In this document: positions 11,915 to 34,520 of the stretch, piece by piece
Position numbering within the stretch: position 1 is the stretch's first letter
Layout: each line of letters opens with the position of its first letter
Virus record (IMG/VR): IMGVR_UViG_3300036820_000043
Coordinates: 1 to 38,587 of that record
Length of the DNA: 38,587 nt
Reading direction: 5' to 3' (one strand)
Origin: a virus
Position numbers and translations under genes: made by a program
The notes under the pieces: model-generated
Told to the model about the DNA's origin: nothing
Seen by the model: only the letters and a program-made list of their open reading frames with translations
Database searches by the model: none

Positions 11915-12298
11915 ATGACAAGATGGTTAAGACAAATAAGATGGATGTTTGCTTCAAAGTTATCACAACAAGTTTCTGGTATAGTTTCTGAAAAGGTTAT
12001 TCCTGATATTACAAAGCTTTATAGAGAACAGAAAATAACTGCGGGAAATTTAGAGAATATGACTCATTTTGTGGGGGAAATTATTAAAGAGTTTCCCAAA
12101 CTTGAAGAGCGCGTTATTAAGCTTGAAACCGATAGCACATTTCTTTTGGCCCAACTTGATGCAAAAGAAAAAGAACTTGCCGAGTGCCATACGCAGCTTT
12201 CACAAGTATTAGAAAATGAAGTTTCTCAATCGCCATGTCTTGGTGAAAGATTTAGAACAAGTAGAGGCACTAAAAGAAGTGCCAAGAAGAAGGATTAA
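11915..12298 (+). CDS. Hypothetical coiled-coil protein, 127 aa
   Basis: The ATG at 11915 is chosen because AAGGAG lies seven bases upstream; an in-frame ATG at 11894 sits before that site. An amphipathic basic N-terminus (TRWLRQIRWMFASKL) could touch membrane or DNA. A long coiled coil follows (LEERVIKLETDSTFLLAQLD) and a Lys/Arg-rich tail. Its stop overlaps that of the leftward gene 12295-12561 by a few bases, so there is no room for a terminator between them. Function unknown. Confidence 0.6.
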   Translation: MTRWLRQIRWMFASKLSQQVSGIVSEKVIPDITKLYREQKITAGNLENMTHFVGEIIKEFPKLEERVIKLETDSTFLLAQLDAKEKELAECHTQLSQVLENEVSQSPCLGERFRTSRGTKRSAKKKD

Positions 12299-12561
12299 GC
12301 CCCTTCGAAGTCATCTTTGCTGAGAATAATAAAATCTTCTGGTTCTTCTATCATGCGGTATGATTTGATGTGCAGCTGAATTATTTCCCGGCGGCTGGCT
12401 AATGACGAATCAATTTCCATTGCCTCTTGTTCCATGATCTGCATAGCTTTTAAGAAAAAGCGGTAACGGTTTGATTTTTCCTGTGCAGAGCGTTCATAGT
12501 CCATACGGTCCATGCCGGAAGCGGTAGATAATATTATGACCCCCAACAATATGATCTTCAT
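12295..12561 (-). CDS. Secreted small protein on the opposite strand
   Basis: An 88-aa leftward gene inside an otherwise rightward region. AAGGAGAT is placed a few bases before the ATG. The first ~16 residues (MKIILLGVIILSTASG) are a signal peptide without a lipobox Cys; the mature part is charged and helical (MDYERSAQEKSNRYRF, EIIQLHIKSYRMIEEPEDF). An envelope-acting accessory protein is plausible. Its ends overlap the convergent gene on the right strand. Confidence 0.6.
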   Translation of the reverse strand: MKIILLGVIILSTASGMDRMDYERSAQEKSNRYRFFLKAMQIMEQEAMEIDSSLASRREIIQLHIKSYRMIEEPEDFIILSKDDFEGA

Positions 12562-14344: not shown

Positions 14345-14698
14345 ATGACACTTTCTGAACAACAACAACTATTTGCCCAGCATGTAGCCCAACTTATTAT
14401 AGAAATAAAAAACCAGGGTTACGCATGTACTCTTGCCGAAGCTTATAGAACTTCTGAGCAGGCTGCTTTGTACGCTAAGCGTGGTGTGGGCATTATAGAT
14501 AGCCTTCATTGCGAAAGACTGGCCATAGATCTCAATTTATTTAAGAATGGAGAATATCTTATGGATAACAATTCTTATGAGATATTTGGCAAATGGTGGG
14601 AAAGCCTAGACCCTAACAATAGATGGGGTGGTTATTTTGTGAGTAAATATGGCGGTCATATAGTGGACTTGGATCATTTTGAAAGAAAGCCAGAATGA
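14345..14698 (+). CDS. M15-family endolysin (L-alanyl-D-glutamate or D,D-peptidase type)
   Basis: A 117-aa single-domain peptidase. EAYRTSEQA (32-40) and SLHCERLAIDL (53-63) followed by DLDHFE (108-113) give the M15 zinc-site order: His55, Asp62 and His111 as ligands, with Asp108 as the likely catalytic acid. Enzymes of this type cleave cross-linking or stem peptides of peptidoglycan. The length fits small phage endolysins without a wall-binding domain. There is no signal sequence, so a holin is needed; candidate membrane proteins lie at 15128, 30998 and 34039. The next gene overlaps by ATGA. Confidence 0.85.
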   Translation: MTLSEQQQLFAQHVAQLIIEIKNQGYACTLAEAYRTSEQAALYAKRGVGIIDSLHCERLAIDLNLFKNGEYLMDNNSYEIFGKWWESLDPNNRWGGYFVSKYGGHIVDLDHFERKPE

Positions 14699-15135
14699 AT
14701 AAAAAAGAAATAAAAGGTTTAACTATCTCACGCCATCATATTACCGTTTTAATAACTGATGGGAAAAATGATAATTCGGTACACATAAATGGACCATTTA
14801 ATATCTCTACTGATGACCCAGTTCTTAAAGATATATGTGAATGGAACAAAATTGATATTATAGAAGCTATTCAATTTCTTAAAAGCTTAGCAAAAATGTT
14901 TCCAAGATTAGATGACACTCGTCCGAATTATATCGGACATAGATTTGGTTCATGGACTATTATAAGGGATGCGCCAGATAGAGTTGTTCCAAAGATGCCT
15001 AATTCTCGGCAAAGAATTAGGTACTGGGAAGCTCAATGCGACTGCGGATTTATAAGAACAATGTCTTTATCTAATATTAGGTCAAGCGGAATAAACGGTA
15101 GATGTAGAATGTGTCCTAAGGATAAAAATGATTAG
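14695..15135 (+). CDS. Zinc-ribbon DNA-binding-like phage protein
   Basis: A 146-aa protein. Residues ~79-140 match a domain common in phage proteins and HNH-associated factors: YIGHRFGSWTIIRDAP, then YWEAQCDCGFIRTMSLSNI and CRMC. Cys115, Cys117, Cys137 and Cys140 form the zinc site. The usual form is GxRFGRLTVIER...W.C.CDCG...C.C. The N-terminal ~75 residues are a separate alpha/beta domain. It is probably DNA-binding, but no nuclease core is present. Coupled to the endolysin by ATGA. Confidence 0.7.
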   Translation: MNKKEIKGLTISRHHITVLITDGKNDNSVHINGPFNISTDDPVLKDICEWNKIDIIEAIQFLKSLAKMFPRLDDTRPNYIGHRFGSWTIIRDAPDRVVPKMPNSRQRIRYWEAQCDCGFIRTMSLSNIRSSGINGRCRMCPKDKND

Positions 15136-15268
15136 TTTTATTATAGGTTTACTCGCAGGAATTATATTATCTTCTTCATTTGATTGCGGCAGATGTGTAG
15201 AGTACAAAAAACATTTAAATGAGATTGCGCGACACAGATTGGAGAAAATGCATGAAGAATTGGTTTAA
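15128..15268 (+). CDS. Tiny membrane protein, 46 aa
   Basis: AAGGA six bases before the ATG, overlapping the zinc-ribbon gene by 8 bp and the next gene by 17 bp. It begins MISFIIGLLAGIILSSSF (one membrane helix), then DCGRC and a charged helix (KKHLNEIARHRLEKMHEELV). Its position two genes after the endolysin suits a small holin- or spanin-like lysis helper, but the topology alone does not prove this. Confidence 0.6.
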   Translation: MISFIIGLLAGIILSSSFDCGRCVEYKKHLNEIARHRLEKMHEELV

Positions 15269-16900: not shown

Positions 16901-17185
16901 ATGAAGAATCTCATATGTCTTTTAGTGTTACTTAATACGACAACCCTTATGGCGGGAGAAAAGAGTTTTAGCTCTCAACAACCAGGGTTGCCTGAAATAA
17001 GACATTCTATTGATCATAAAGCAGAAGCCGAAGGTCTACGTGGAGAACTTGCTCGAACCAAATCTTATCATGAAGCACAAATTAAACAGGAGAAATGCAA
17101 ATCGCTCACCGCAGTACTTACTGCTTGTGGTTCTTTTCTAGGTGCAGTTGCTTCGTTTATATATTCTGTGAAGAAATGTAATTAA
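16901..17185 (+). CDS. Signal peptide plus C-terminal membrane protein (u-spanin-like topology)
   Basis: A 94-aa protein with a cleavable-type signal (MKNLICLLVLLNTTTLMAG), a middle charged helix (EAEGLRGELARTKSYHEAQI) and a C-terminal membrane segment (AVLTACGSFLGAVASFIYSV) ending KKCN. Envelope-spanning with both ends hydrophobic is the layout of single-gene spanins, but those have a lipobox Cys and none is visible at the cleavage site. A strong GGAG lies upstream. It sits between the large terminase and the portal promoter. The role is inferred from topology. Confidence 0.6.
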   Translation: MKNLICLLVLLNTTTLMAGEKSFSSQQPGLPEIRHSIDHKAEAEGLRGELARTKSYHEAQIKQEKCKSLTAVLTACGSFLGAVASFIYSVKKCN

Positions 17186-23814: not shown

Positions 23815-24906
23815 ATGAGTGTTGTTTTTTCTGGAACTAATCAAGGTAGATTTACCGCAAATGGTAAAAATATCTTTCTTCCTCTTCCCCCTGGTGCTGA
23901 TTATGTACATGTATTGAATGAATCCATTGCATATGGTGGCGCTCCCGGTGCTAATACTGGGGTAATATTTGACTGGTATTTGGGTGATACAACTGGCCGT
24001 GGTACGGTTCAATTCGTTACTAATGGCGGTTTTCCTGCTCTTAATATTGGTCAAATAGCTGTTGGTGCTGGATTCTATTTTATTGATACTACCAATAATC
24101 AGCCTGGACCGCTTAATAACGGTTCAACTGCTATTACTGCTATTTCAACTGCAACTCCTCCGCGAGTGACAGTTGGTTCAACAGCAGGTATGTTTACCGG
24201 TCAAACAGTACAGCTTTATAATGTAACAGGAGCTCCGCAACTTAATGGTTTGCAGTTCTCTATTACGGTTATTGATGCTACTCACTTTGATTTAACTAAC
24301 TGTTCTCCATTGGCTAATGCGGCTACCGGCGGTTCTTTCCGCGTAATACCGTATCAGCCATTGTACACAGTTGCATTCCCTGGTATTCCGGGACAAACGG
24401 TATCACCAACTCTGATTGAGGATCCATACTGGTATCCAACATCTCGTGTTATTGGTGATATTTCTCAAGCTAATCAAGCAATCATTACACTTTTAGTGAC
24501 TCATACTTATACTATCGGTCAATCTATTTCACTGAGAGTGCCAACAGTGAGCGCTACTGTTTTCGGTATGCCAACACTTAATGATCTGCAAGACGTAACA
24601 ATTGTTAATATTAATCAAGCCGATGTTAATGGTTATACCAATACTATTACTGTTGACTTGAATACAACTGGTATTGGCCCATGGGCTTTCCCTGATAATA
24701 CTGCTCCTGGTTACACACCAGCTCAAGTTATTCCAGTGGGTGCAAATACTGCCCAAGGTCTAGCAAGCAATCAAAATATCTTGGCTGATGCTACTGTTAA
24801 TCAATCGAATCGTGGTGTCCTAATGGTCGCTGGTGCTCTGTCTCCAGCCGGCGCTAATGGCAATATAATTCAATGGGTTGCTGGTAAATCATTCAACGGT
24901 TTTTAA
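23815..24906 (+). CDS. Head decoration / minor virion protein with FCCH-like domain
   Basis: A 363-aa beta-rich protein 10 bp after the capsid, with AAAGGAGG upstream. Residues ~105-170 (TAISTATPPRVTVGSTAGMF, GQTVQLYNVTGAPQLNGLQF) resemble the E1 FCCH-like domain that occurs in many phage structural proteins. The C-terminal ~140 residues (YPTSRVIGDISQ...PVGANT) share layout with the 129-aa protein at 25470, including a PVG end. A terminator follows directly, so capsid and this gene probably form a short, highly expressed unit. Decoration or head-stabilising role inferred. Confidence 0.65.
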   Translation: MSVVFSGTNQGRFTANGKNIFLPLPPGADYVHVLNESIAYGGAPGANTGVIFDWYLGDTTGRGTVQFVTNGGFPALNIGQIAVGAGFYFIDTTNNQPGPLNNGSTAITAISTATPPRVTVGSTAGMFTGQTVQLYNVTGAPQLNGLQFSITVIDATHFDLTNCSPLANAATGGSFRVIPYQPLYTVAFPGIPGQTVSPTLIEDPYWYPTSRVIGDISQANQAIITLLVTHTYTIGQSISLRVPTVSATVFGMPTLNDLQDVTIVNINQADVNGYTNTITVDLNTTGIGPWAFPDNTAPGYTPAQVIPVGANTAQGLASNQNILADATVNQSNRGVLMVAGALSPAGANGNIIQWVAGKSFNGF

Positions 24907-27552: not shown

Positions 27553-29868
27553 ATGCCAATTGATCGTTTTTTTATTGCTCCCTATGATACTAATAGCGGT
27601 ATGCAAACAAATGTTCGTCCCTGGTTAATCCCAGATGAGGCATTTGCTGAATTGACTAATGCATATGTTTTTAGAGGAAGAGTACGAAAACGATTCGGTT
27701 CAAGATACTTAGGAACAGATGCTCCTTCTTCTCGGTTGAGATTTACTGCGGCTACGTATGCTACAGGATCTGCTACTGGAACTGTTCCGGATGCTCCTTG
27801 GCCTATCGGTACAGCCTTTTCAATACTTGGGGTATTTTTTACGGTTAATGTAACCGGAACTCCTGCCAATTTATTAATTGCAAACGGCTCAGCGGTTGCG
27901 GCTACTTTTAATACAACTTCTGGTGCATTTGTTTTTACTACTGTATTAGATAGCGGCGGTAATCCAATTCCTGATAATACACCCGTCTATTTTTATCCAT
28001 CATTACCCGTGATGGGGCTACTTACTTTTTATGATAATACACAACTTAATGAACCCACTATTGCTTTTGATACTTCTTATGCCTATCAATATATAGCCAA
28101 TACTGGCTGGGATAGATTAGCAGCAGAAGCAACTGGTGGCGCAGCAACTTGGACTGGTGATAATTCACAATTCTTTTGGGGTGCTACATGGGGAGGAACT
28201 ACGCCTTCGGCGAGTAATTCAGTATTTTATGTTACAAATTTCAATCAAAATGAACCAAATTTCATGCGTTATTTGCTTAATAATACATGGAATAACTTTA
28301 ATCCTACAGTAAGCAATTTAGTAGTCGGTCCTCCATTAATATTAGGCATTACTTTAGTATCAGGTCTCATAATAGTTCCTTTTAAGAATAGACTTGTTGT
28401 TCTTAATACTTGGGAAAGTGAAACTGCTGATGGTATGACATTTACTCTGAATAATTATCCAGCCCGTGCTCGTTATTCTCAAGCCGGTTCGCCCCTTGCT
28501 ACTACTGGATGGCGCCAAGATATTCAAGGACTTGGTAATGCGGTAGATGCTTCTACTACAGAAGCTATTGTAAGTGTAGAGTTCATCAAAGATCGTTTGA
28601 TTGTATTCTTTGAGCAATCAACCTGGGAATTGGTATATACTGGTAACCAAGCATATCCATTTGTATGGCAACAACTTAATACCGAACTTGGCGCAGAATC
28701 GACTTTCTCTATTGTTGCCTTCGATAAGGTAGTTTTAGGAGTAGGTAATGTTGGTATTATGGCCTGTAATGGCTCAAACGTAGAACGAATAGACGATAAG
28801 ATTCCCGATGAAGTTTTTAATATTCATAATGCTGATGAAGGTATTTATAGAGTATATGGAATCCGTGATTACTTCGTAGAAATGACCTATTGGACATTTC
28901 CAAGTACAGATGCGAGTTCTACTTTTCCTTATCCCAATAGAGTATTGGTATATAATTATAAAACCGGTACATGGGCATTTAATGATGATTCTATTACGGC
29001 ATTTGGTTATTTTCAGCCCCAATCAAGTATTACATGGGATTCATTAACTGTTACATGGGATGATGATGAATCATGGGATAATGGCTCAACTCAAGCTCTT
29101 TTTCGCCAAGTTATCGCAGGAAATCAAGAAGGATTTACCTTTATTTGTGATGCTGAAGAAACTACCAATGCTTTAGTGCTACAAATTACTGATATCAGTA
29201 CAAATGTAATGACACCTAATATTATTACATTTACCGTTATAGATCATAATCTACGAGAAGGTGATTATATATATTTTAATGGTATTACGGCGAGTTCAGG
29301 AAATCTTACGTTGCTTAATAATACCATATTTCCTGTCATAAATTCAGGATCAAATACGATAACGGCAACTCAATTTTCAATTGTTTATTCGGATGTTCCA
29401 GGAAATATTATTACCGGTACATATTCTGGTGGTGGCTTAATCTCTCGAGTAAGTAATATTAATATTCTTACTAAGCAATATAACTTTTATGCAAAGAGTG
29501 GCAGAAATGCATATGTATCAAAGATAGACTTTATGGTTGATTCAACTGCTGCCGGTCAGATTCAAGTAGATTATTATGTCTCTACAGCACAGGATCCTCT
29601 TACGCAAGAAAGTGTCCTTAATGGTTCTATTTTAGGAACCGGAACCTTGGACACATTCCCTTATAACAATGCTGCTGCTCCTGTACCCTATGAAGCAAAC
29701 GCAACAAGATTATGGCATCCGGTGTATTTCCAGGCAGACGGTGAAGTAGTTCAGTTTGAATTGAGTATGAATGATGCTCAGATGAGAAACGTTAATATTA
29801 TGGACAGTGATTTCCAGATGCATGCTATGTGCATTTATGCCACACCAACGAGTTATCGTTTTCAGTAG
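27553..29868 (+). CDS. Tail hub / nozzle protein (P22 gp10-like)
   Basis: A 771-aa protein. The N-terminus (FFIAPYDTNSGMQTNVRPWL, IPDEAFAELTNAYVFRGRVR, KRFGSRYL) is the standard start of the podovirus nozzle family. The centre looks like a beta-propeller of Trp/Asp repeats (LGAESTFSIVAFDKVVLGVG). Residues ~545-640 hold an inserted FCCH-like domain (TPNIITFTVIDHNLREGDYI), and the C-terminus is beta-rich. It forms the ring below the adaptor through which DNA passes and to which fibres attach. Confidence 0.8.
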   Translation: MPIDRFFIAPYDTNSGMQTNVRPWLIPDEAFAELTNAYVFRGRVRKRFGSRYLGTDAPSSRLRFTAATYATGSATGTVPDAPWPIGTAFSILGVFFTVNVTGTPANLLIANGSAVAATFNTTSGAFVFTTVLDSGGNPIPDNTPVYFYPSLPVMGLLTFYDNTQLNEPTIAFDTSYAYQYIANTGWDRLAAEATGGAATWTGDNSQFFWGATWGGTTPSASNSVFYVTNFNQNEPNFMRYLLNNTWNNFNPTVSNLVVGPPLILGITLVSGLIIVPFKNRLVVLNTWESETADGMTFTLNNYPARARYSQAGSPLATTGWRQDIQGLGNAVDASTTEAIVSVEFIKDRLIVFFEQSTWELVYTGNQAYPFVWQQLNTELGAESTFSIVAFDKVVLGVGNVGIMACNGSNVERIDDKIPDEVFNIHNADEGIYRVYGIRDYFVEMTYWTFPSTDASSTFPYPNRVLVYNYKTGTWAFNDDSITAFGYFQPQSSITWDSLTVTWDDDESWDNGSTQALFRQVIAGNQEGFTFICDAEETTNALVLQITDISTNVMTPNIITFTVIDHNLREGDYIYFNGITASSGNLTLLNNTIFPVINSGSNTITATQFSIVYSDVPGNIITGTYSGGGLISRVSNINILTKQYNFYAKSGRNAYVSKIDFMVDSTAAGQIQVDYYVSTAQDPLTQESVLNGSILGTGTLDTFPYNNAAAPVPYEANATRLWHPVYFQADGEVVQFELSMNDAQMRNVNIMDSDFQMHAMCIYATPTSYRFQ

Positions 29869-29877
29869 GAGAAAAAA

Positions 29878-30402
29878 ATGCCTTATCAGCCAATTCAACA
29901 AAATACTGGTTCTTTTGTTCCCACCACGAATGTATGGGATGTATCAGAAATATACTCAGTAGATGTTACTTCTCCTGAATTTAAAGAACTTATTGTCCGC
30001 TTATATCAAAATATAAATAATGTATCATTAGTGTTAAATACTAAAGATTCTGCTTTCTATTTGACGGAAGAGTTCGTTAATAGTCAGCTTTGGTTTAATG
30101 CAATAACGAATGACCAATTGAGGCTACGTCCTGCTTTTAGAATGACAGTTAATACTGGCGCTCTGGGAGCAGGAGTTACCACGGTTGCGCATGGTATAGC
30201 AGTTGATGCGAATACTTCTTGGGTATATATTAGCGGTGCAGCAACGGATTCGGTTAATCTCCTGGGATATCCAATTACGTTTGGCGGTGGGGCAAATAAC
30301 AATATTGGGGTGAATGCAAATGCTACTAATATCATTATTAATAATAATAGCGGTCAGACATTTACTGGTTCGGTAATTGTTCTTGAATATCTGAAGTTTT
30401 AA
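29878..30402 (+). CDS. Conserved tail protein, TGSFVPTTNVWDV family
   Basis: A 174-aa protein found in many podovirus-like phages: NTGSFVPTTNVWDVSEIYSV, DVTSPEFKELIVRLYQNINN, then VAHGIAVDANTSWVYISGAA and a terminal VIVLEYLKF strand. It follows the nozzle gene, with GTAGGAG upstream. Probably a tail or fibre-base component. The last 41 bp overlap the convergent RHH gene. Confidence 0.75.
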   Translation: MPYQPIQQNTGSFVPTTNVWDVSEIYSVDVTSPEFKELIVRLYQNINNVSLVLNTKDSAFYLTEEFVNSQLWFNAITNDQLRLRPAFRMTVNTGALGAGVTTVAHGIAVDANTSWVYISGAATDSVNLLGYPITFGGGANNNIGVNANATNIIINNNSGQTFTGSVIVLEYLKF

Positions 30403-30592
30403 ACGGACGACCTTTTTTGATAAGTCCTTCTCTTGGTGGTAAAGCGCCGGATTTCTCTTCATAAGCATTCACACATATTTCCAGGGATTCTTCTATAAAA
30501 GAAGTGATGGTAATTCCTGGTGTCCAATAAGAGATTCTTCTAATTCTTTCTAATAACGCTTCATCTATTTTTACGGTAACGGTTTTCTTCAT
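30362..30592 (-). CDS. Ribbon-helix-helix regulator 1
   Basis: A 76-aa leftward gene. KKTVTVKIDEALLERIRRIS then ITITSFIEESLEICVNAYEE is a classic RHH fold: an N-terminal strand that reads DNA, then two helices. The tail (PPREGLIKKGRPF) is basic. AAGGAAATAA precedes the ATG. It probably regulates itself and/or the leftward neighbours; a tandem 9-bp repeat lies just upstream. Its 3' end overlaps the convergent tail gene. Confidence 0.8.
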   Translation of the reverse strand: MKKTVTVKIDEALLERIRRISYWTPGITITSFIEESLEICVNAYEEKSGALPPREGLIKKGRPFKTSDIQEQLPNQ

Positions 30593-30613
30593 TTATTTCC
30601 TTATAAAAACTAC

Positions 30614-30631
30614 TTACATGTATTACTTGTA
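30614..30631. promoter_or_regulatory. Tandem 9-bp repeat upstream of RHH regulator 1
   Basis: TTACATGTA is followed directly by TTACTTGTA (8 of 9 identical). RHH proteins often bind tandem half-sites next to their own promoters, and this lies 22 bp before the RHH start. Operator function inferred. Confidence 0.45.
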
Positions 30632-30640
30632 ACAGATTTT

Positions 30641-30672
30641 ATAGAAAAATAAAGGACGCACCATGCGTCCTT
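30641..30672 (-). terminator. Rho-independent terminator for the secreted PPIG protein
   Basis: On the minus strand AAGGACGCA and TGCGTCCTT (9 bp) close a 3-nt loop, then TATTTTTCTATAAAA. It follows the gene 30704-30919 and precedes the RHH gene, which therefore needs its own promoter. Confidence 0.85.
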
Positions 30673-30703
30673 ATTAACTGAAAACTAATATAAAAATTGT
30701 TTA

Positions 30704-30919
30704 TTAACCTATTGGAGGTGTACTAAACAATGGTGGCATCAAGAAATAGATAGGATCTACTTCTGACTTCAACCCAATTGGAGGAAATTCTGCACCAATT
30801 GGAGGAGTTATGAATCCTACAGGTGGTGTATACGGAGCGATCTCTCGACGATCAGTGCCGTTTGCACTGCTTACTGAGAGTGCGATCAACATAGAAAATA
30901 CGTATGCATATTTAAGCAT
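30704..30919 (-). CDS. Secreted PPIG-repeat protein, 71 aa
   Basis: AAAGGA six bases before the ATG. A signal peptide (MLKYAYVFSMLIALSVSSAN) is followed by a ~50-residue mature part with TPPVG, TPPIG, FPPIG and a terminal STPPIG. At DNA level the repeats read as ATTGGAGG units. Proline-rich repeats suggest an extended, surface or periplasmic peptide, possibly altering the host envelope. It has its own terminator. No family recognised. Confidence 0.65.
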   Translation of the reverse strand: MLKYAYVFSMLIALSVSSANGTDRREIAPYTPPVGFITPPIGAEFPPIGLKSEVDPIYFLMPPLFSTPPIG

Positions 30920-30968
30920 GGCGTATCCTTTCTGTTAAGAGTTAATAAAATAAATACTAAATGTGATA

Positions 30969-30980
30969 TTAGCATGCTAA
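30969..30980. promoter_or_regulatory. 12-bp perfect palindrome before the secreted protein gene
   Basis: TTAGCATGCTAA reads the same on both strands and lies 50 bp upstream of the PPIG gene start, between it and the 51-aa membrane gene. It could be an operator for a cassette regulator. No direct proof. Confidence 0.35.
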
Positions 30981-30997
30981 ACAATTAAAGCAACTAT

Positions 30998-31153
30998 TTA
31001 TTCATCAGTTCTTACCAAAAACGTTAGACATACAAGACAGGTATAAACTGATATAACAAGCATGGAAATGTATACAGGTGCATCTATTATTTTAAGACAT
31101 GCAGATAACATCATGAATTGAACGAGGTAATTTATTATATCTTCTAGATACAT
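30998..31153 (-). CDS. 51-aa two-helix membrane protein (holin candidate)
   Basis: AAAGGAG just before an ATG at 31153 selects a short product; a longer frame upstream is antisense to the Gly-rich gene and is rejected. Two hydrophobic segments, YLVQFMMLSACLKII and VYISMLVISVYTCLVCLTFLV, are joined by a short DAP turn, and the end is charged (RTDE). Size and topology fit a small class II-type holin or a superinfection-exclusion protein. Leftward, inside the virion gene block. Confidence 0.6.
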   Translation of the reverse strand: MYLEDIINYLVQFMMLSACLKIIDAPVYISMLVISVYTCLVCLTFLVRTDE

Positions 31154-31172
31154 ATATCTCCTTTTTCTGGTA

Positions 31173-31194
31173 CTAATATACCGTAATATATTAG
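31173..31194. promoter_or_regulatory. 22-bp inverted repeat in a divergent intergenic region
   Basis: CTAATATA and TATATTAG form a perfect 8-bp inverted repeat around 6 bp (CCGTAA), between the leftward membrane gene and the rightward ejection gene. The geometry (8-6-8) equals that of the early-switch repeat at 7053-7074. A possible extended -10 for the rightward gene (TGATATAAA, 31204-31212) lies next to it. Confidence 0.45.
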
Positions 31195-31238: not shown

Positions 31239-31859
31239 ATGGCAAACTTTGGTGGTGGCGTAGCAGGGGGTTTAGGAGGTGCTGCAACAGGAGCAGGAAT
31301 AGGATCATTATTTGGTCCAGGACCTGGAACTGCCATTGGAGCTGGCGTAGGAGGATTAGCCGGATTCCTGGGCGGTCTATTCGGAGGCGGCAAAGAAGGT
31401 GGTGTCCAACAAGCACAGAATTTTACTCCTGAACAACAAAATATTCTAAAATTACTTTTAGGCCAAGGACAACAAGGATTGCAAAATCCCTATCAAGGAT
31501 TTGAAGGGATAGAGAATTATGCAAATAAGCAATTTCAACAAAATACGATTCCTTCTTTGGCCGAGCGATTTACTTCTTTGGGGAGTAATTCGCTAAGTTC
31601 TCCTGCATTTGCATCTCAATTAGGAGCCGCTGGTTCTGATTTGGCTACTGGCCTTGGTTTTTTAAGATCTCAATATGGACAACAGAATCAACAAAATGCA
31701 TTAGCTCAACTTGCTTTAGGATTAAGTCCTCAATTTGAGAATTTCTATAGTGGAAGGCAACCTGGATTTGGTGAAGAGCTCTTTAAGTCATCTGCTCAAG
31801 CAGCTCCGGCGCTTTATCAATCATATTTGATGAACAAAGCCCTACAAGGAATCAAATAA
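31239..31859 (+). CDS. Glycine-zipper ejection protein candidate
   Basis: A 206-aa protein. The first ~55 residues are a Gly/Ala zipper (GGGVAGGLGGAATGAGIGSL, GTAIGAGVGGLAGFLGGLFG), suited to membrane insertion; the rest is Gln-rich helix (LLGQGQQGLQ, FLRSQYGQQNQQNALAQLAL). The first of three such genes, it matches the layout of podovirus internal proteins that leave the capsid and form a channel across the envelope during DNA injection. Function inferred from composition and position. Confidence 0.65.
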   Translation: MANFGGGVAGGLGGAATGAGIGSLFGPGPGTAIGAGVGGLAGFLGGLFGGGKEGGVQQAQNFTPEQQNILKLLLGQGQQGLQNPYQGFEGIENYANKQFQQNTIPSLAERFTSLGSNSLSSPAFASQLGAAGSDLATGLGFLRSQYGQQNQQNALAQLALGLSPQFENFYSGRQPGFGEELFKSSAQAAPALYQSYLMNKALQGIK

Positions 31860-32987: not shown

Positions 32988-34158
32988 TTGGATCATAGAA
33001 CCAGCTGATTCTCAATCTCCTGAATCATTTGGTGAGCAAGTTAAACGCGTGGGAATTGGTACAGGGATAAGAGGCTTGCAGGGCATAGAAGGACTTGCTG
33101 ATTTAATATGGAATAATGCGCCACATCCTTCTGAAGCGCTTAAAGAACGGTTTAATCTGACTCCTGAATATCTCGAACCACGAAATTTTGGAGAGAACTT
33201 GGTTCAGCGGTTCGGTTCGTCTGCCCCATTTACAGCTGCTCTTGGCGGTGTTCCCGCTTTAGGTTCTCTAGTATTAGGTTCTGGAGCTGGTGCTCTTTTG
33301 GGCAGTGTTGGTCTCCCTGAAGGAGTTCAGGATGTGGGACAGGTTGCGACTGAGTTGCTGGGTGGAAGATTAGCGAGTGATAAATTAGGAAAAGTAATAA
33401 ATAGATTCCCGGGAGTTTCTGAAAAGATCAGCAAAGGAAGAGAATTAGCTAAAGCCTCAGTTTATCCCAATAAGGCAGATTTTTTAATAGATAAGGGCGG
33501 CAAAGTCGTTAAATCAACTGAAGCAAATAAAATAGTTTCAGCCATGAAAGAGGTAGGAAATAGACTACATACTGAGACGGACTCTAAAATATCTCAATCA
33601 ATTCAACATACTCTTGAAAAATTGGGAGAAAATATTGTTAAAAATAAAATCGATCCTGCAACTGCTATAGATTTACGCAAGAGTCTTTATCGTCAAGCAT
33701 CAAAATTGCCGTCTTCAGTTTCTTCAGATTATATATCTCCACTTACAAAAGGTATTAATAATTTTTTTGCTGAGTATGCCGTAGAGAATCCTAAATTTTG
33801 GAAGCATCTTAAGCCAGCGGACCAGTTGACCGAGATGAAGCATATGAAATCTTATATAGGAGAAGCATTATCAGGTAGTGCAGCCAATATCCCTGGAGGA
33901 AATATATCTAAAGCGTTAAAATTAATAGCAGAGTATCCTATTGGTAAGTTTGAAAAGTTTGCTCGTACATTAATAGGAAATCCAGCTGGAAGAAAGCACT
34001 ATTTTGATATATTTAAAGGATTATCAAAGAATGATCCGCTACTCATAACCCAGGGCGTAGGCGGCCTGATCAACCAGTTCTCTAATATTTTCGGGCAACT
34101 TAGCCAGGGCTCTGAAGAACAACTTATCCCAGAAAGTAGCAAATGGATCATAGAGTAA
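32980..34158 (+). CDS. Ejection / internal virion protein candidate 3
   Basis: A 392-aa protein. The ATG at 32980 follows GGGAGGAG and overlaps the previous stop by 8 bp; the longer frame from 32959 is not preferred. A Gly-rich hydrophobic stretch (VPALGSLVLGSGAGALLGSV, residues ~90-109) and amphipathic helices suggest membrane association. The C-terminal part is helical (AEYPIGKFEKFARTLIGNPA). Its last 120 bp overlap a leftward membrane gene. Third of the ejection set by position. Confidence 0.6.
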   Translation: MADWIIEPADSQSPESFGEQVKRVGIGTGIRGLQGIEGLADLIWNNAPHPSEALKERFNLTPEYLEPRNFGENLVQRFGSSAPFTAALGGVPALGSLVLGSGAGALLGSVGLPEGVQDVGQVATELLGGRLASDKLGKVINRFPGVSEKISKGRELAKASVYPNKADFLIDKGGKVVKSTEANKIVSAMKEVGNRLHTETDSKISQSIQHTLEKLGENIVKNKIDPATAIDLRKSLYRQASKLPSSVSSDYISPLTKGINNFFAEYAVENPKFWKHLKPADQLTEMKHMKSYIGEALSGSAANIPGGNISKALKLIAEYPIGKFEKFARTLIGNPAGRKHYFDIFKGLSKNDPLLITQGVGGLINQFSNIFGQLSQGSEEQLIPESSKWIIE

Positions 34159-34284
34159 TAGTTTAAGTATGCACCAAGGCAAGAATACTTTGACTACAAG
34201 CCAAAAGGTAAATAATCCCATAGCAAATGTAAGCGGAATCATTGCTATTAATGCTAATAAAACGGTTAAAAACTTTATAATCAT
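34039..34284 (-). CDS. Two-helix membrane protein partnered with RHH regulator 2
   Basis: An 81-aa leftward gene starting 1 bp after the RHH stop, with AGGGG upstream. Hydrophobic segments are FLTVLLALIAMIPLTFAMGL and FTFWLVVKVFLPWCILKLLL; the C-terminal ~35 residues are an amphipathic soluble tail (LAKLPENIRELVDQAAYALG). The tail is encoded antisense to the end of the ejection gene. Possible roles are superinfection exclusion, a holin or the toxin-like partner of the RHH protein. No family recognised. Confidence 0.55.
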   Translation of the reverse strand: MIIKFLTVLLALIAMIPLTFAMGLFTFWLVVKVFLPWCILKLLLYDPFATFWDKLFFRALAKLPENIRELVDQAAYALGYE

Positions 34285-34285
34285 A

Positions 34286-34456
34286 TCAATCCCCTAATGA
34301 TCTCTCGGATTTAAGTCTGGCGTATGCAGCCCTCAATATCCACATAGTAATACTAATATTTCTCTTTTTGGCTGATTCTTTGATGCAATCATGAAGTTCT
34401 TGTGGCAAATCTACTGATAATCTCTTTCTGCCTGGACGATTATTTATTTTTTTCAT
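34286..34456 (-). CDS. Ribbon-helix-helix regulator 2
   Basis: A 56-aa protein: RKRLSVDLPQELHDCIKESA then KKRNISITMWILRAAYARLK, a typical RHH (Arc/CopG) fold with a basic N-terminus. An ATG at 34456 is taken; a TTG at 34471 would add five residues. The ribosome site is weak. Two palindromes lie just upstream (34488-34501, 34507-34520), and the membrane gene follows directly. Autoregulation is likely by family precedent, not shown. Confidence 0.75.
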   Translation of the reverse strand: MKKINNRPGRKRLSVDLPQELHDCIKESAKKRNISITMWILRAAYARLKSERSLGD

Positions 34457-34487
34457 AACTATTATTTTCAATATAGCACGTTAATTA

Positions 34488-34520
34488 ATTGTGTACACAA
34501 TAATATATCAATTAATTGAT
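34488..34520. promoter_or_regulatory. Two adjacent 14-bp perfect palindromes
   Basis: ATTGTGTACACAAT (34488-34501) and ATCAATTAATTGAT (34507-34520) lie 5 bp apart in the divergent region between RHH regulator 2 and the rightward fibre gene. The first overlaps a possible leftward -35, and the second touches the rightward TTGATT box. Likely operators for the RHH protein (inference). Confidence 0.6.

Follow-up and report, generated by a model that had tools for sequence, protein, structure and literature searches.

Three small genes point leftward within a block of rightward late genes in a podovirus genome, which raises the question of what a regulator, an exported peptide and a membrane protein do at such a place. 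The genome analyzed here (the window) is a complete virus record, 38,587 bp long and bearing an end repeat of 127 bp; its portal is of the P22 type, a terminase and a major head protein were also identified, and a DNA search of the window against phage records gave no match. Comparisons were made with 91 related viral loci out of at least 564 confirmed relatives. The three genes, A, B and C (cassette 1, 30362-31194), are a window-specific accessory island, in which a recycled regulator is joined by two envelope proteins that are orphans. A second antisense locus nearby (cassette 2, 34039-34471) is the conserved version, and its pattern of an RHH protein with a small, fast-changing membrane protein is larger and better supported than the trio.

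Genes and DNA signals of cassette 1

The preliminary description had reported three leftward genes with their own ribosome sites, and this holds: ORFs A, B and C were confirmed between the plus-strand genes g29878 and g31239 (Table 1), with a good Shine-Dalgarno sequence before each (AAGGAAATAAATATG; AGAAAGGATACGCCATG; AAAGGAGATATATGTATG). The gap holding them measures 836 bp, and the 3' end of A overlaps g29878 tail to tail. Their codon scores are intermediate, exceeding those of 72-88% of spurious ORFs and lying below those of core genes, and all three show GC1>GC3 as core genes do; this codon evidence is supportive only. An intrinsic terminator is located between B and A, which divides the trio into two transcription units, C→B and A, and not one operon. 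The earlier notion of a single self-regulated unit is therefore not supported.

Table 1 Features of the two antisense cassettes and their surroundings in the window
Feature	Position	Strand	Remarks
LUZ24-type structural protein	27553-29868		Profile match
g29878, left flanking late gene	29878-30402	+	
A, RHH protein, 76 aa	30362-30592	-	YWTPG/GRP ParA-partner family by sequence, solo
Tandem 9-bp repeat TTACATGTA / TTACTTGTA, upstream of A	30614-30631		Candidate operator of A, weak alone
Intrinsic terminator ending the C-B unit	30652-30672 (reads 30672-30652)	-	9-bp perfect stem, T-rich tail, shuffle z -3.5
B, exported protein with PPIG/PPVG repeats, 71 aa	30704-30919	-	By hydropathy/composition
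12-bp palindrome TTAGCATGCTAA, between C and B	30969-30980		Local p about 0.05
C, membrane protein, 51 aa	30998-31153	-	By hydropathy
22-bp inverted repeat CTAATATA-N6-TATATTAG, before C	31173-31194		Candidate operator, local p about 0.05
g31239, right flanking late gene, glycine-zipper	31239-31859	+	Ejection-protein-like by position
D, membrane protein, 81 aa	34039-34284	-	By hydropathy; convergent with g32959
E, Arc-like RHH protein, 61 aa	34286-34471	-	Profile and fold match to Arc
Two 14-bp palindromes ATTGTGTACACAAT, ATCAATTAATTGAT, before E	34488-34520		Candidate operators

The other DNA signals described earlier all exist as well, but the palindromes are statistically weak. Perfect palindromes of at least 12 bp number 22 in the window, compared with 13 ± 4 expected. 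A promoter-like site on the minus strand (31212-31185) has its -10 within the 22-bp inverted repeat, for which no second match with at most 2 mismatches was found. Because promoter-like sites in the cassette 1 region are no commoner than in shuffles and the repeats near B and C lie close to p 0.05, the control signals of cassette 1 are suggestive only. Elsewhere in the window, a perfect 22-bp palindrome (ATTCCGCATATATATGCGGAAT, 1456-1477) lies within the gene at 108-1820. Read on the strand opposite to B, the repeat that codes for PPIG (CCAATTGGAGGA) takes the form of a strong ribosome site before a 42-aa ORF (30810-30938, plus strand), and this site is probably a by-product of the repeat.

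Protein A is, judged by its sequence, a member of a family of RHH partners of ParA that is marked by a YWTPG turn in the RHH core and a GRP tail. It matches AL022_RS04115 of the Cardinium plasmid pCher, whose gene immediately follows that of ParA, and starting from this match 13 bacterial and 15 viral relatives were collected. Family members were detected in 14 of the 101 Dependentiae genomes. They are located directly behind ParA in Dependentiae, Chlamydiae and one viral contig (L109), and occur solo in Nitrospira and in another phage group (L110-L122), where the gene lies between scaffold-like and capsid-like genes. A resembles the RHH proteins of pCher and of the Dependentiae and Chlamydiae MAGs in core, turn and tail (24-44% identity), but differs from these ParA partners in that it starts at the strand region, without the ~45 N-terminal residues that form the MxxKTIGENPLD arm. 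Viral members of the L110 type are likewise armless. No ParA lies beside A, and none was recognised among the annotated window genes (a subset of the ORFs was searched). A is a solo copy of a ParA-partner RHH protein, which does not support the dedicated partnership with B and C that had been proposed. A single-sequence scan of viral contigs and phage records with A retrieved nothing, the family emerging only after the Cardinium match. A supposed match to A in L050 was rejected (internal stop, E 0.65). A tree of A and its relatives was set aside because it gave no supported placement and several Dependentiae rows had been read on the wrong strand. By profile comparison, A and E do not form one family.

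In kind, the earlier reading of the trio, a regulator accompanied by an exported and a membrane protein, was right. B has a signal-peptide-like N-terminus by composition, with a cleavage context between ANG and TD and a mature part of ~50 residues. C has one clear hydrophobic stretch by hydropathy; the membrane segment claimed for it stands, whereas the proposed two-helix structure is uncertain. The exported and membrane calls for B, C and D were made from hydropathy and composition. Profile searches of Pfam and PHROGs gave no family match for the three proteins, and PHROGs, PADLOC and NCBIfam returned no informative match for the exported and membrane proteins. Relatives of B and C were found neither in the 91 related loci nor in viral scans, and no homologue of B was present in 101 Dependentiae genomes. 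Candidate matches to B in L015 and L095 were rejected, as they contained internal stops or were antisense to a recombination gene of another phage. The PPIG-repeat peptide, for which the preliminary description knew of no described system, has no detected relatives, so that its novelty is that of an orphan. Another antisense exported protein (88 aa; 12295-12561, minus strand; signal peptide ending at ASG, followed by MDRMDY) is encoded outside the virion block.

Sites 1 and 2 in related viruses

The preliminary description had proposed to search relatives for the same trio, whose absence from all of them would refute the proposal. The trio was found in none of the 91 related viral loci, which is the refuting outcome for the trio, though not for the site. 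Both flanking genes were readable in 72 relatives, in which the gap mostly measures 0-70 bp. In 10 of these 72 (L003, L020, L038, L039, L051, L073, L074, L079, L086, L091), site 1 holds an exported protein with a signal peptide that is unrelated to B, mostly leftward and often with a C-terminal hydrophobic segment. Site 1 is an insertion hotspot. An M15-type endolysin-like gene adjoins exported proteins at site 1 of L038, L039 and L011. The build of several site-1 proteins of relatives, a signal peptide plus a C-terminal TM segment, also occurs in a 94-aa protein of the window (16901-17185, plus strand) between terminase and portal. In 16 relatives (L004, L005, L011, L050, L051, L053, L060, L065, L074, L077, L078, L079, L083, L084, L089, L091) the homologue of g29878 keeps its neighbours but is inverted, so that leftward transcription of the site-1 region probably occurs in these viruses.

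Cassette 2 lies between ejection-protein-like and tail genes, the place of sieA-mnt in P22. A profile of E detected an antisense RHH protein in 49 of the 51 loci having the tail gene, and all 53 hits were on the minus strand. After redundancy was removed, 55 antisense neighbours remained, a few of them divergent RHH genes, and 35 of the 55 have a TM segment. In the comparison sets the share is lower, at 14 of 75 for spurious antisense ORFs preceded by a ribosome site and 30 of 445 for small co-directional genes. With signal peptides included, the count among the neighbours rose to 36 of 55 (p = 2e-6 versus the spurious antisense ORFs). The membrane proteins at site 2 are mostly 35-97 aa long. 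In L026 and L028, a non-matching membrane-protein segment is flanked on both sides by stretches that are 82-89% identical, and in L021 and L024 the replaced stretch extends further, into the ejection-protein-like region. The best fold match of E is P22 Arc (Foldseek probability 1.00, E 0.07). The shared core of the palindromes before E, TGTGTACACA, recurs before E in L035 and L091, but long palindromes at this position are not a general rule, being not above shuffles over 28 loci. HNH-endonuclease-like genes adjoin the antisense RHH gene at site 2 of L002, L011 and L046, and are fused to it in L012, L058 and L067.

Host assignment

A profile of the structural protein matched 1 of the 101 Dependentiae genomes in a whole-genome search, a single contig of 1,118,422 bp. 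At this place (L130:13950-18374; G020:C1, about 95.9-100.4 kb) the chromosome carries a remnant of this phage's late genes, consisting of a structural-gene fragment, the homologues of g29878 and g31239 in order, and then a 453-aa gene in place of g31869. A small membrane ORF is convergent with the end of the 453-aa gene. Four more small hydrophobic ORFs lie beside the remnant (L130:12533-13557). The remnant links the virus group to Dependentiae, bacteria living inside amoebae, which are probably the host. More distant profile matches in 3 of 151 Chlamydiae genomes make Chlamydiae the second-choice host, and a pattern search for the structural protein in GTDB contigs found none. In the exported proteins of relatives the signal peptide is often followed by Met, as in those of the remnant-bearing chromosome (by simple motif 15 of 44, versus 9 of 56 in other proteins); this shared style is weak support for the host. 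No described phage of Dependentiae was found in the literature searched, and the Babela massiliensis genome paper identified no phage-related genes (PMC4378268).

A tyrosine integrase is absent from the window and from 25 of 26 relatives, and no lysogeny genes were identified in the window. One integrase gene is present in the record of L041 (G273, 24284-24784), and part of the phage group may therefore be temperate.

Possible functions and comparison with known systems

Our preferred explanation of the island, which we offer tentatively, is an accessory envelope module under repressor control that serves superinfection exclusion. It would be an antisense module inserted between two late genes of a Dependentiae podovirus, the same kind of locus as cassette 2 at another site and with other parts. 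The C-B unit, ending at the terminator, would provide a small inner-membrane protein and a Sec-exported peptide. The other unit would provide A, a solo RHH repressor that probably binds its own tandem repeat and perhaps also the repeat at the C-B promoter. As in immI of P22 (mnt-sieA), the result would be a repressor-controlled patch within the late block with its own leftward promoters, and the envelope proteins would hinder adsorption or DNA entry of competing phages. We infer exclusion from position and turnover. This function is favored because cassette 2 agrees with P22 immI in its parts and its place, and cassette 1 is the same kind of locus. Indirect support comes from the family-wide recurrence of antisense RHH and small membrane proteins in the sieA-mnt place, and from the other exported proteins that relatives carry at site 1. 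Several points count against it: the trio is confined to this phage among the loci compared, the operator signals of cassette 1 are weak singly, the endolysin-like gene at site 1 of three relatives fits lysis, and the ejection-protein label of the neighbours rests on their position. No homologue of SieA or of any known exclusion protein was found in the window. Since most of the family has no tyrosine integrase, the module would have to be expressed during lytic growth, persistence or another maintenance state, and this scarcity of integrases is the main weakness of the P22 parallel.

Lysis timing is a less likely function of the trio. A lysis unit, with C (and D) as holin-, antiholin- or pinholin-like proteins, B as an envelope-disrupting peptide and the RHH proteins setting the timing, would account for the M15-type genes beside exported proteins. 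The signal peptide plus C-terminal TM build in relatives also resembles one-protein spanins in topology, and a holin profile gives a very weak match (E 0.12) to the membrane protein of L066. We nevertheless consider it unlikely, as the window's own endolysin candidate is far off (14345-14698, with a small TM ORF nearby at 15128-15268), an antisense placement relative to the late genes would be odd for a late function, and hypervariability fits exclusion better. Moreover, B has no lipobox, and neither an adjacent endolysin gene nor a holin family match was found for B, C or D. That B and the site-1 proteins of relatives are effectors, acting on the bacterial surface or the amoeba for the infected bacterium and not against phages, seems decidedly unlikely. 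The signal-peptide style that relatives share with the candidate host chromosome agrees with such a role, as does the very large share of proteins that Dependentiae export (PMC6561590). B itself, however, has another cleavage context, a short mature part and no Dependentiae homologue, and the site-2 partners are mostly membrane proteins.

Unlikely to the same degree as a lysis unit is an origin of A from the parA-RHH pair of a phage-plasmid or captured plasmid, with B and C as unrelated passengers. It would agree with the relatives of A directly behind ParA and with the tandem short repeats before A, which resemble partition-type sites, but the window genes that were annotated include no recognised ParA, A itself is an intact gene preceded by a good ribosome site, and solo members occur in virion blocks of other phages (L110-L122). 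It is very unlikely that A alone is a gene and that B and C arose by chance as ORFs of an AT-rich insertion, even though the two have no homologues, surpass only 72-88% of spurious ORFs in codon score, and hydrophobicity is frequent in AT-rich antisense ORFs (27% of unselected ones). Strong ribosome sites precede all three ORFs, the terminator is placed just after the C-B unit, and without them a compact genome would contain an empty gap. Least credible is a toxin-antitoxin-like pair, in which an RHH antitoxin would be combined with C or D as a small membrane toxin. In its favor, E lies directly next to D with the RHH gene first, and small hydrophobic proteins may be toxic; yet neither a known TA toxin nor a defence system was matched, no known toxin was recognised in an operon with the RHH genes as in type II systems, A and C belong to separate units, and the RHH protein stays while its membrane partners change.

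A wider version of the exclusion reading is possible but doubtful: the near-constant immI-like locus of Dependentiae phages would be a general exclusion device, and the window's virus would have built a second one with a partition-derived repressor and a new PPIG peptide. For the trio alone the message is smaller.

Among known systems, SieA and the lipoprotein Ltp of Streptococcus thermophilus phages are likewise small exported or membrane phage proteins (PMC3952083), with a role like the one proposed here; no sequence relation to them was seen, and lysogeny genes were not identified in the window. The closer comparison is with P22 immI (sieA - mnt - arc - ant), in which mnt and sieA are flanked by genes 16 and 9, are variable and are largely off the late message (PMC8022706). 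SieA is an inner-membrane protein that occurs in three types less than 30% identical and acts on ejection proteins (PMC10883804). We do not claim membership in the immI family, because no SieA or Ant homologue was found: searches of Pfam, PHROGs and NCBIfam gave no SieA or Ant family match. At cassette 2, no ant or divergent arc was found, the membrane proteins are not homologous to SieA, and the phage family, unlike P22, mostly has no tyrosine integrase. E resembles Arc-like repressors (phrog_582; P22 Arc, CopG folds) by profile and best fold match with weak scores, and would control a membrane protein and not an antirepressor. Cassette 1, one site earlier, shares with immI only the antisense position in the late block. 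It lies before and not after the ejection-protein-like genes, adds an exported protein, and has its membrane gene upstream of A in the other unit, unlike the immI order. Cassette 2, in contrast, has its antisense RHH gene within the late operon, with ejection-protein-like genes on one side and tail genes on the other. Downstream of the RHH gene follows a membrane protein (D and its counterparts, by hydropathy) that is convergent with the last ejection-like gene. Cassette 2 and immI are both highly variable between relatives, and the window's portal belongs to the P22 family. If our reading is right, an exclusion locus of the P22 immI type, familiar from phages of enterobacteria, is near-constant in phages that infect an obligately intracellular phylum and swaps its membrane protein as a unit, and a concrete set of small envelope proteins is at hand to be tested for a block of phage entry.
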